Source: an uncultured bacterium
Lineage (GTDB): Bacteria; Verrucomicrobiota; Kiritimatiellia; RFP12; UBA1067
NCBI GenBank assembly: GCA_902776615.1
Contig: CACYQU010000010.1
Coordinates: 1 to 45,969, forward strand
Direction: 5' to 3'
DNA: 45,969 nt
Under the pieces are notes generated by a model, which had not been told where the DNA came from, made no database searches, and worked only from the letters and a program-made list of their open reading frames with translations. Shown one piece after another: positions 257 through 4,406 of the stretch. The translations under genes and the position numbers were made by a program. How positions within the stretch are numbered: position 1 is the stretch's first letter; every line of letters starts with the position of its first letter.

Positions 257-321
257 CGCGGGCGTCCTGCCCGCGACTAAGGAGGGTTTTAATCTTCCAT
301 CTGAGCGGGCGAGACGCCCGC
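257..321. repeat. Two REP-like GC hairpins
   Basis: Two short perfect hairpins lie in non-coding DNA. The first is CGCGGGC (257-263) with GCCCGCG (269-275) around a 5-base loop. The second is GCGGGCG (305-311) with CGCCCGC (315-321) around AGA. Small GC-rich dyads of this kind are typical of dispersed intergenic elements. The rest of 31-256 shows no gene, and its two CTGTCCCC-like strings in opposite orientation are the only other structure seen. Confidence 0.5.
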
Positions 322-382
322 TCTCCCAGTGATGCGCTCTGCCAGTGATGCGCTCTGCCAGTTATGCGCTCTCCCAGTAGGG
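319..382. repeat. Four tandem copies of a 16-bp repeat
   Basis: The unit CGCTCTSCCAGTGATG occurs at 319, 335, 351 and 367, diverging only in the last copy (ending AGGG). The same unit recurs twice at 769-800, just upstream of kbl. The two clusters flank the palindrome array and the transposase remnant, so the unit is a dispersed tandem element rather than a unique site. No coding function is apparent. Confidence 0.75.
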
Positions 383-448: not shown

Positions 449-590
449 CCCTAAGGGCAAGCGACTGAAACCCTAAGGGTAAAGCGACCTCACCCTAAGG
501 GTGAGCGATAAAAACCCTAAGGGTGAAGCGGCCTCACCCTAAGGGTGATTAATAAAAACCCTAAGGGTGAAGTGCTCTCACCCTTAGGGT
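449..590. repeat. Seven-copy CCCTAAGGG palindrome array, exact 22-bp period
   Basis: CCCTAAGGG (CCCTTAGGG in the last copy) starts at 449, 471, 493, 515, 537, 559 and 581, every 22 bp without exception. Most copies extend to the palindrome ACCCTWAGGGT. The spacers alternate between a GC-richer type (for example GAAGCGGCCTC) and an AT-rich type (GAGCGATAAAA, GATTAATAAAA), giving a 44-bp higher-order unit. Neighbouring copies across the GC-rich spacers form larger dyads. Copies six and seven (558-570 with 578-590) form a perfect 13-bp stem with a 7-base loop. The array could be a protein-binding array on one DNA face or a structured repeat. Confidence 0.9.
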
Positions 591-889: not shown

Positions 890-2065
890 ATGTACGGTAA
901 ATTTCAGGCGCATCTTCAGGAGACAATCGCCGATCTAAAGGCCAAGAGCCTATACAAGAACGAAAAAATCATCGCCACGCCACAGGGTGCGAATGTGGTG
1001 CTTGAGAACGGCACCAAGCTTCTCAACATGTGCGCGAACAACTATCTTGGGCTTGCGAACCATCCAGAGGTGATCGAGGCGTCGCGCGAGGCCACGTCGA
1101 AGTATGGCTATGGCATGGGGTCGGTGCGCTTCATTTGCGGCACCGACTCGCTTCACAAGCAGCTCGAGCGCGTCGTCGCCGACTTCACCAAGACGGATGA
1201 CTGCATTCTCTTCGGCAGCTGCTTCGATGCGAACGGCGGCGTATTCGAGGCTCTGCTCGGGCCTGAGGATGCGATTATATCCGACGCGCTCAACCATGCC
1301 TCCATAATCGACGGCGTGAGGCTTTGCAAGGCGAAGCGCTTCCGCTATGCGAATGGCGACATGGCCGATCTGGAAGTGCAGCTCAAGGCGGCGGACGAGG
1401 CTGGCGCGCGCTTCAAGCTCATTGTGACCGACGGCGTTTTTTCGATGGACGGCATCATCGCGCCGCTAAAGGAGATCTGCGATCTCGCCGACAAATACGG
1501 CGCGCTTGTGATGGTTGACGACTCTCATGCCGTTGGAGTTCTCGGCGCGACAGGCTCGGGATCTGTCGAGGATTGCGGTGTCACTGGCCGCGTAGACATC
1601 ATAACTGGAACGTTTGGCAAGGCTCTAGGCGGCGCATCGGGCGGGTATGTCGCGGCGCGTCAGGAGATTGTCGACATCCTTCGCCAGAAGGCGAGGCCGT
1701 ACCTCTTTTCCAACGCAGTTCCGCCGCCGGTCGCGGCCGCTTCGATAAAGGCAATCGAACTTGTGAAGACCCGTCCCGAACTGCGCGAGCGCCTGAACGC
1801 GAACGCCAAGCAGTTCCGCGAAGGAATGGCGAAGCTCGGCTTCGACCTCGTGCCGGGTCACCACCCGATTGTCCCTGTGATGCTCGGCGACGCGGTTGTC
1901 GCCGTGAAGATGAGCGAGAACCTTTACAAGAACGGCGTGTATGCGACGGCGTTCTTCTATCCGGTAGTGCCGATGGGCAAGGCGAGAATCCGCACCCAGA
2001 TGTCTGCCGCACATACGCCTGAGGATATCGACTTCGCCATCAACGCATTTGCCAAGAGCCGCTGA
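890..2065 (+). CDS. kbl: 2-amino-3-ketobutyrate CoA ligase (glycine C-acetyltransferase)
   Basis: This PLP enzyme of the alpha-oxoamine synthase family splits 2-amino-3-ketobutyrate with CoA into glycine and acetyl-CoA, the second step of threonine breakdown by the threonine dehydrogenase route. The 391-residue product is close to the usual ~398. The PLP lysine is K244 in [10 protein letters not shown], and the ring-stacking and phosphate-contact region VDDSHAVG lies at 209-216. The start at 890 is chosen because of AAAGGAGA 9 nt upstream and because the N-terminus [13 protein letters not shown] matches the family. The frame stays open upstream to 614, but that part is transposase relic and repeat. 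No threonine dehydrogenase gene is adjacent in the window. Related enzymes (KBL, BioF, SPT, ALAS) share the fold, but the sequence reads best as Kbl. Confidence 0.93.
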
Positions 2066-3410: not shown

Positions 3411-4406
3411 ATGTCTAAAGACTCGCCATACTTTAAAGTCGCAGTCGCAACAGTGGTTGCGGCGATGGCTTTGTCCGCATTGGCCGCCAAACCAGACCTA
3501 AGCCTTATTGTCGATCCATCGGCGCTTGTGGAGATAGCGCCGCTGGCGTTGGACGCGATTCAAATAAAGCGCAAGGCGATGGCGCGCGAAGCCAAGCACA
3601 ACGCCGAGCTTGCAAAGCGAGGCGTGGCAGAGGTTCCGCCGTGCGGCATGCAGCGCTACAAGATCGACACGGGCGGACTTCTCGACGGCCTTGTGTTCGA
3701 CGAATGGGGCGAGTTCTATGTCGACAGGCGCTTTGTGACGGACGAGGAAATGAAGACCGTGATGGCGATAGAGGCTTGGATACGGAAGTGGTTTCCGTCC
3801 AAGGTGAAACGCAGTCGTGTGCCTGTGCTGCCGTCTGGCAAGAAGGGCGTGCCGGTTTTTTGCGGTTTCGAGGACAGCCGCTACCAGAAGCACGACGCCT
3901 TGATACAGAAACTCGTCGATGAATTCAATGCCGACAAAGCCAAGGGATGCGGCGGCAGTGCGGCGCAGGCGGCAAAAATTCCCGACCTCATGGCCGCTCT
4001 TGTCAAGGCGCACATGATTGAGGAGTCGGGCGGAAACGGCCCGTCGTCCAAAGCGGCGTGGCTTGTCGATCCTCTGCAGGTCAACGTTCCAGGCGACTGG
4101 GGGGACGAGAAACGCGATGTAGGTTTGTCGAAACCTTCGAAGCGCAACGAGGGGACTGCCGAGAATAATATCCGTGCGGCGATTCGGTATCTTTCGCGCA
4201 AGGGGTTTGGATCTTCCGGCAAGGCCGCGTCCGTCCGCGAGGACGGCTACTTTGACGGTTGGGAGGCGGCTTTGCGCCGCTACAACGGTCGGCGCGATCG
4301 TACTGCGACCGATCGATACTACAGCGATGAATACGCATCGAAGATTCTAAAGCGCGCGGCCGACCCGAGTTTGTTCGTTCCGATAGAAATCAAGCTGGCA
4401 AAGTAA
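3411..4406 (+). CDS. Secreted lysozyme-like / lytic transglycosylase-like protein
   Basis: The N-terminus has a hydrophobic signal helix (about 8-25) ending LSALAAKP. The C-terminal half (about 190-320) resembles the lysozyme-like transglycosylase fold. A helix carries HMIEESGG (201-208) in the place of the catalytic Glu and ES motif. DPLQVN (220-225) sits where family members have GLMQ(V/I). A helical segment ENNIRAAIRYL follows, then RRYNG (289-293) in the place of AYNxG, and a final Y-x-x-x-I-L helix. Such enzymes cut the glycan strands of peptidoglycan. The N-terminal part (about 30-190) is not recognised. The gene starts one base after the TMEM43-family gene without a clear ribosome binding site, implying coupling. 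The family call rests on motif order only. Confidence 0.55.
   Translation: MSKDSPYFKVAVATVVAAMALSALAAKPDLSLIVDPSALVEIAPLALDAIQIKRKAMAREAKHNAELAKRGVAEVPPCGMQRYKIDTGGLLDGLVFDEWGEFYVDRRFVTDEEMKTVMAIEAWIRKWFPSKVKRSRVPVLPSGKKGVPVFCGFEDSRYQKHDALIQKLVDEFNADKAKGCGGSAAQAAKIPDLMAALVKAHMIEESGGNGPSSKAAWLVDPLQVNVPGDWGDEKRDVGLSKPSKRNEGTAENNIRAAIRYLSRKGFGSSGKAASVREDGYFDGWEAALRRYNGRRDRTATDRYYSDEYASKILKRAADPSLFVPIEIKLAK

Follow-up and report, generated by a model that had tools for sequence, protein, structure and literature searches.

Dispersed arrays of CCCTWAGGG palindromes at an exact 22-bp spacing in an uncultured Kiritimatiellia bacterium and some of its relatives: putative protein-binding repeats

The stretch of DNA analyzed here (hereafter, the window) comprises 45,969 nucleotides and is contig C10 of G000, a draft genome of 2.35 Mb in 127 contigs. 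Seven exact CCCTWAGGG palindromes, to which no strand is assigned, occupy positions 449-589 of the window, with cores at 449-457, 471-479, 493-501, 515-523, 537-545, 559-567 (CCCTAAGGG) and 581-589 (CCCTTAGGG). As stated in the initial annotation of this sequence, the start-to-start distance is 22 bp, and this holds in 6/6 steps. The six 13-bp spacers (458-470, 480-492, 502-514, 524-536, 546-558 and 568-580, likewise unstranded) vary in sequence but are invariant in length. The perfect 13-bp dyad that had been described was also recovered; it is formed by ACCCTAAGGGTGA at 558-570 and TCACCCTTAGGGT at 578-590, it spans the sixth spacer, and it is followed on the minus strand by TTTTTATT, which resembles a terminator. 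The minus strand of the array carries two such terminator-like sites. The annotation had further reported GC-rich and AT-rich spacers that alternate with a 44-bp period. Such a period was detected, but the alternation is only partial and holds from the second spacer on, the GC counts of the successive 13-bp spacers being 6, 6, 4, 8, 1 and 6.

The array is preceded, on the plus strand, by the left flank of what we term subfamily A (CGCTCTCCCAGTAGGGCGGTTGCGACTGGCGAGTCGGCCATGG...GTATGGCGGCATGTGTAATTTCC, 367-448), a segment of about 80 bp that has similar copies at 14 places in G000 and no counterpart in 60 congeners. It is also adjoined by a separate dispersed element, a 16-bp tandem repeat (CGCTCTCCCAGTGATG, 319-378, plus strand), which appears again at 768-799, so that this repeat and its variants lie on both sides of the array. 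The next gene, kbl (glycine C-acetyltransferase, 890-2065, plus strand), starts 301 bp past the array and is a housekeeping neighbour that probably does not belong to the element. The remainder of the 46-kb window contains no array comparable to that at 449-589 and only three matches to CCCTWAGGG, each with one mismatch, where 3.97 were expected from shuffling the whole window with one mismatch allowed. A search of the window against Rfam gave no match above the gathering score.

Arrays of the same kind are scattered over G000. There are 24 of them, each of 4-8 units and all intergenic; the 24 places were listed by an AA/AA pair pattern, and the sequence fetched from them gave the 24 arrays. 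Altogether, G000 contains 97 exact 22-bp pairs of neighbouring CCCTWAGGG cores, and the usual extended site in its arrays is ACCCTWAGGGT. In a 782-kb sample, consisting of the window and stretches picked regardless of arrays, 49 of the 51 CCCTWAGGG palindromes were inside arrays, and all 40 neighbouring pairs were 22 bp apart. An order-4 model predicted 0.5 solitary cores in 781 kb of G000, and relative to this expectation no depletion of solitary cores was observed. Only subfamily A has the alternating 44-bp architecture; other subfamilies and species show no alternation. The earlier suggestion of expansion in 44-bp units is therefore not general: the general unit is 22 bp, and the 44-bp unit is a trait of one subfamily in G000. 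It had also been anticipated that a passive mobile repeat would be scattered randomly and with a variable period; the arrays are indeed scattered over the genome, yet their period is constant.

Other repeats in G000 were observed alongside these arrays. Several intergenic families share a period of 22-23 bp, namely, arrays of the palindrome CCTATATAGG at 23 bp, and once at 22 bp (L012:216-340 and L041:2673-2846), a 23-bp tandem array with ACACGTGT palindromes (L016:17696-17876), and dispersed 22-bp tandem repeats of GGTGGCAGGTCTGGCGGCCAGA with the dyads TCTGGCSGCCAGA / TCTAGCGGCTAGA (L016:16756-16984, L044:4245-4429, L020:236-382 and L005:3999-4098). In addition, two paralogous gene pairs that are 92% identical (L179 and L183) are each followed by a CCCTWAGGG array, and the left flanks between gene and array differ.

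Exact pairs were found in five of 162 genomes of the order: G000, G058 (Candidatus Spyradenecus faecavium, DVOR01), G041 (Kiritimatiellaeota BRZ_SL bin71, CALXMV01), G068 (CAMGJH01) and G097. Most relatives have no arrays. When a three-unit pattern was searched in 84,980 species genomes, a set from which records close to G000 were possibly left out, it matched only G058, G041, G068 and CAMOSA01, which is labelled Prevotellaceae. Open reading frames on two CAMOSA01 contigs read as putative rpsL, rpsG, fusA and a C10-type protease that looks like those of Bacteroidota. These identities are tentative, so misbinning is possible. In one of these arrays (L122, from position 3460 onward), the CCCTAAGGG units run on into 22-bp TGTAGCCAAAAGCACCTATGCG repeats, as if the core had drifted. 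The elements of G058 mostly consist of four units and then a tail, TTTCGGAAAnnnATnnGnACTTATnnnGAAT, of which there are 30 copies in G058 and none in 16 congeners. An even palindrome of 10 bp, either CCCTTAAGGG or CCCCTAGGGG, usually marks one array end (13/24 arrays of G000 and 44/53 of G058). The flanks and locations of the arrays are genome-specific. No DNA match pointed to carriage of the arrays on a plasmid or phage, and the viral matches to the 22-bp pair came down to two isolated cases and three satellite prophages that are related to one another. A literature search on such arrays in Kiritimatiellota, limited to one library, yielded no useful match; the listed papers with CCCTAAGGG matches were not about bacterial repeats.

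Of the 299 neighbouring cores that lie 10-40 bp apart in the five genomes searched in full, 298 sit at exactly 22 bp, and the sole exception is at 21 bp. Pairs at any gap of 1-31 bp numbered 97, 175, 18, 7 and 2 in G000, G058, G041, G068 and G097, respectively, and those at exactly 22 bp numbered 97, 175, 17, 7 and 2. Spacer identity between G000 and G058, G041, CAMOSA or G097 was 0.32-0.33, which is the random level (0.32), while spacer length was unchanged, a combination that is hard to explain without a constraint on spacing. Not every array genome is independent, because spacers are alike in G058 and G041 (0.66) and in G000 and G068 (0.48); judging by these values, the members of each pair may share recent ancestry. 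In the 30 copies of G058, which were picked by the tail and not by the cores, divergence was 0.065 in the cores versus 0.138 in the spacers (p=0.001). The central W of the core flips freely. Covariation in the spacer dyads did not exceed that of column-preserving shuffles, and the predicted folds of single array strands are highly stable (z -8.1 and -8.8). The core and the spacing are thus constrained, and the remaining array sequence is not. The initial annotation had suggested selection for cooperative protein binding. Of this proposal, selection on spacing is supported by the near-universal 22-bp distance, the random-like spacers between genomes and the lower divergence of the cores, while a binding protein and its cooperativity are what we infer from them.

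Among 90 arrays (24 in G000, 53 sampled in G058 and 13 in G041), 89 are intergenic and one, in G041, lies inside a predicted gene; gene positions came from an ad hoc gene caller, and the G041 and G058 samples were chosen for arrays. Convergent gaps were enriched (27/63 arrays vs 47/229 in the background, p=0.0005), and divergent gaps were fewer (10/63 vs 66/229, p=0.05), with none among 14 arrays in G000. Within 30 bp of an array in G058 were 16/60 gene 3' ends, as compared to 2/33 gene 5' ends. Furthermore, several predicted genes in G058 and G041 end 5-6 bp inside an array, and their stop codon can fall in the core. The genes next to arrays at 24 loci are unrelated and largely housekeeping, and no gene family, for instance one of autoregulated DNA-binding proteins, recurs among them. 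Only three neighbour genes matched between G058 and G041, which by our estimate is near chance.

Altogether, the arrays look like an undescribed family of scattered, putative protein-binding repeats. The reading that we hold, at somewhat better than even confidence, is that they are a new dispersed, BIME-like family of dyad sites for a predicted DNA-binding protein and that they multiply within genomes. A dimeric protein would most likely bind each palindrome; adjacent dimers, about two helical turns apart, would then be aligned along almost one face of the DNA and would touch each other, and these contacts would keep the core and the spacing while the spacer sequence drifts. The odd-centred dyads, the free central W, the fixed two-turn spacing and the drifting spacers are the reasons that a cooperatively binding dimeric protein is favoured. 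The elements would multiply within a genome and survive chiefly close to gene 3' ends, either because they do the least harm there or because they separate transcription units or supercoils; mobility and any host benefit are, like the protein, postulated. Counted against this reading are that neither a binder nor a mobilising enzyme was found, that AlpA is absent, that not every array genome is independent, and that solitary sites are not depleted. An extension of this idea, which we consider unlikely, is a horizontally spreading system in which a putative DNA-binding protein, either a recombinase or an architectural protein, together with 22-bp-spaced CCCTWAGGG sites, enters single species of Kiritimatiellota or Lentisphaerota, or even Bacteroidota, seeds dozens of gene-end arrays, and thereby shapes the chromosome or sets the borders between transcripts.

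The bias toward 3' ends and convergent gaps, the genes that end within arrays, the strong folds and the two terminator-like sites in the window would also be expected of an RNA or transcription element, i.e., tandem 3'-end hairpins that end transcription bidirectionally or make mRNA more stable, as has been suggested for REP/BIME. We consider this unlikely, though still worth entertaining, as the spacer stems show no compensatory change, hairpins could form without an invariant 22-bp period, a single 9-bp core could form a 3-bp stem at best, and the one gene seen adjoining the window array is encoded on the strand that does not carry the T-rich tails. Because the spacer dyads lack covariation beyond column composition, a DNA site is favoured over a conserved hairpin; an RNA role may nevertheless exist, given the stability of the folds, and it is counted against the protein-binding reading. 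Exact spacing within one genome can also arise from tandem duplication of young arrays, which likewise counts against it. On that basis, the arrays could be a passive tandem repeat whose 22-bp unit expands by slippage, with sharing between species due to descent and chance and with no selection on spacing. Period maintenance by duplication and the other intergenic 22-23 bp tandem families of G000 are consistent with such a repeat, but core and spacing are the same between genera in which the spacers are random-like, and cores are conserved above spacers in copies that were not chosen by core, so that we view it as quite unlikely. It is more improbable still that the arrays serve a single regulator as the operators of a defined regulon. 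The sites are palindromic and operator-like, and ACCCTNAGGGT precedes alpA in E. coli satellite prophages; however, array neighbours are unrelated genes that form no coherent downstream set of the kind a regulator's operators would have, the few matches between G058 and G041 are roughly at chance, and divergent promoter gaps tend to be avoided.

A typical REP/BIME element moved by a Y1 tyrosine transposase (RAYT) is disfavoured and has, in our judgement, a very small chance of being correct. Such an element would be extragenic, palindromic, tandem, 3'-biased and present in dozens of copies, as the arrays are, and genes of the RAYT type are present in G000 (6 matches) and in congeners. However, PF01797 (Y1_Tnp) had no match in G041 or in G058, which are drafts of 94% and 87% completeness, respectively, and G058 is the genome richest in arrays, with 175 pairs. 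Conversely, four congeners have Y1 genes and no arrays, and CCCTWAGGG was found at none of ten Y1 loci checked. The GTAG/CTAC tag occurs in 7/24 arrays of G000, 0/13 of G041 and 1/53 of G058, and the CGTC/GACG tag in 3/24, 0/13 and 10/53, respectively. With no Y1/RAYT gene in two of the array genomes, one of them the richest in arrays, and with most arrays lacking a REP tag, the arrays are not RAYT-driven REPs, and RAYT was rejected as their general mobiliser. A different palindrome, GGGGACWGTCCCC, is present 17 times in 782 kb of G000 and at 4/10 Y1 transposase loci (L086, L087, L089 and L092), and is probably the real REP of the RAYT-like genes.

It is in Proteobacteria that interspersed palindromic repeats have been best characterised, and RAYT transposases are often invoked to explain them. 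The arrays, whose core is conserved and whose spacing is fixed relative to the helix, reach high copy number in genomes where no RAYT was found, and they cast doubt on the idea that such repeats can arise only through RAYTs. Their occurrence is patchy over a poorly studied gut order, and they offer a precise, testable site for fishing out a binding protein.

Several known systems share features with the arrays. The iterons of R6K are 22-bp direct repeats at the plasmid origin. In plasmid iterons, as in the arrays, protein sites (putative ones in the arrays) follow one another at intervals of about two helical turns, but iterons are mostly non-palindromic and belong to one origin, whereas the arrays are palindromic, occupy dozens of chromosomal places among unrelated neighbours, have no plasmid match, and were not found at a replication origin beside a rep gene. 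The sopC centromere of the F plasmid consists of 43-bp repeats with an inverted repeat at one plasmid locus. It resembles the arrays in being tandem, with one dyad site in every unit and a unit length close to four helical turns, and differs from them in that the arrays are dispersed and have 22-bp units. In E. coli satellite prophages, ACCCTNAGGGT is present twice at 22 bp, with a third copy about 44 bp on, in the gap before alpA, and these sites are kept in homologues while the intervening DNA diverges; an operator-like trio lies at L171:732-846, and others are at L168, L169, L268 and L269. The dyad, the 22-bp pair and the third site about 44 bp on are as in the arrays, but the prophage case is a single locus of three sites, and the AlpA family is absent from array genomes. 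AlpA was rejected as the array binder, being absent from all 14 genomes tested, and the sites before alpA are an independent parallel with the same site and the same spacing, which we count in favour of the protein-binding reading. REPINs, each a pair of REPs in inverted orientation that depends on a RAYT for its movement, are similarly non-autonomous, genome-specific, dispersed and intergenic, whereas the arrays consist of 2-8 self-symmetric sites and are present without Y1 transposases.

By behaviour, the arrays are closest to REP/BIME (bacterial interspersed mosaic elements, BIME-2). These are extragenic, high-copy palindromes, several to an element, that are regularly spaced, lie downstream of or between convergent genes, and are species-specific (PMC3733652, PMC2817692), and REP/BIME elements share with the arrays their extragenic position, high copy number, regular spacing, and location at gene ends and in convergent gaps (PMC3733652, PMC2817692, PMC1525189). 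The extragenic, multicopy character of REP/BIME is evident in the pair counts of G000 and G058 and in the 89/90 intergenic arrays, and their placement downstream of genes, in convergent or unidirectional gaps, is likewise seen. In contrast, a REP is an imperfect palindrome of 20-40 bp with a GTAG or CGTC end tag, whereas the arrays have an odd-centred dyad of 9-11 bp at a fixed 22 bp, mostly without either tag, with no RAYT in the richest genome and with units that do not alternate in orientation. Because the arrays depart from REPs in both tag and transposase, we class them as variant interspersed palindromic repeats and not as REPs.
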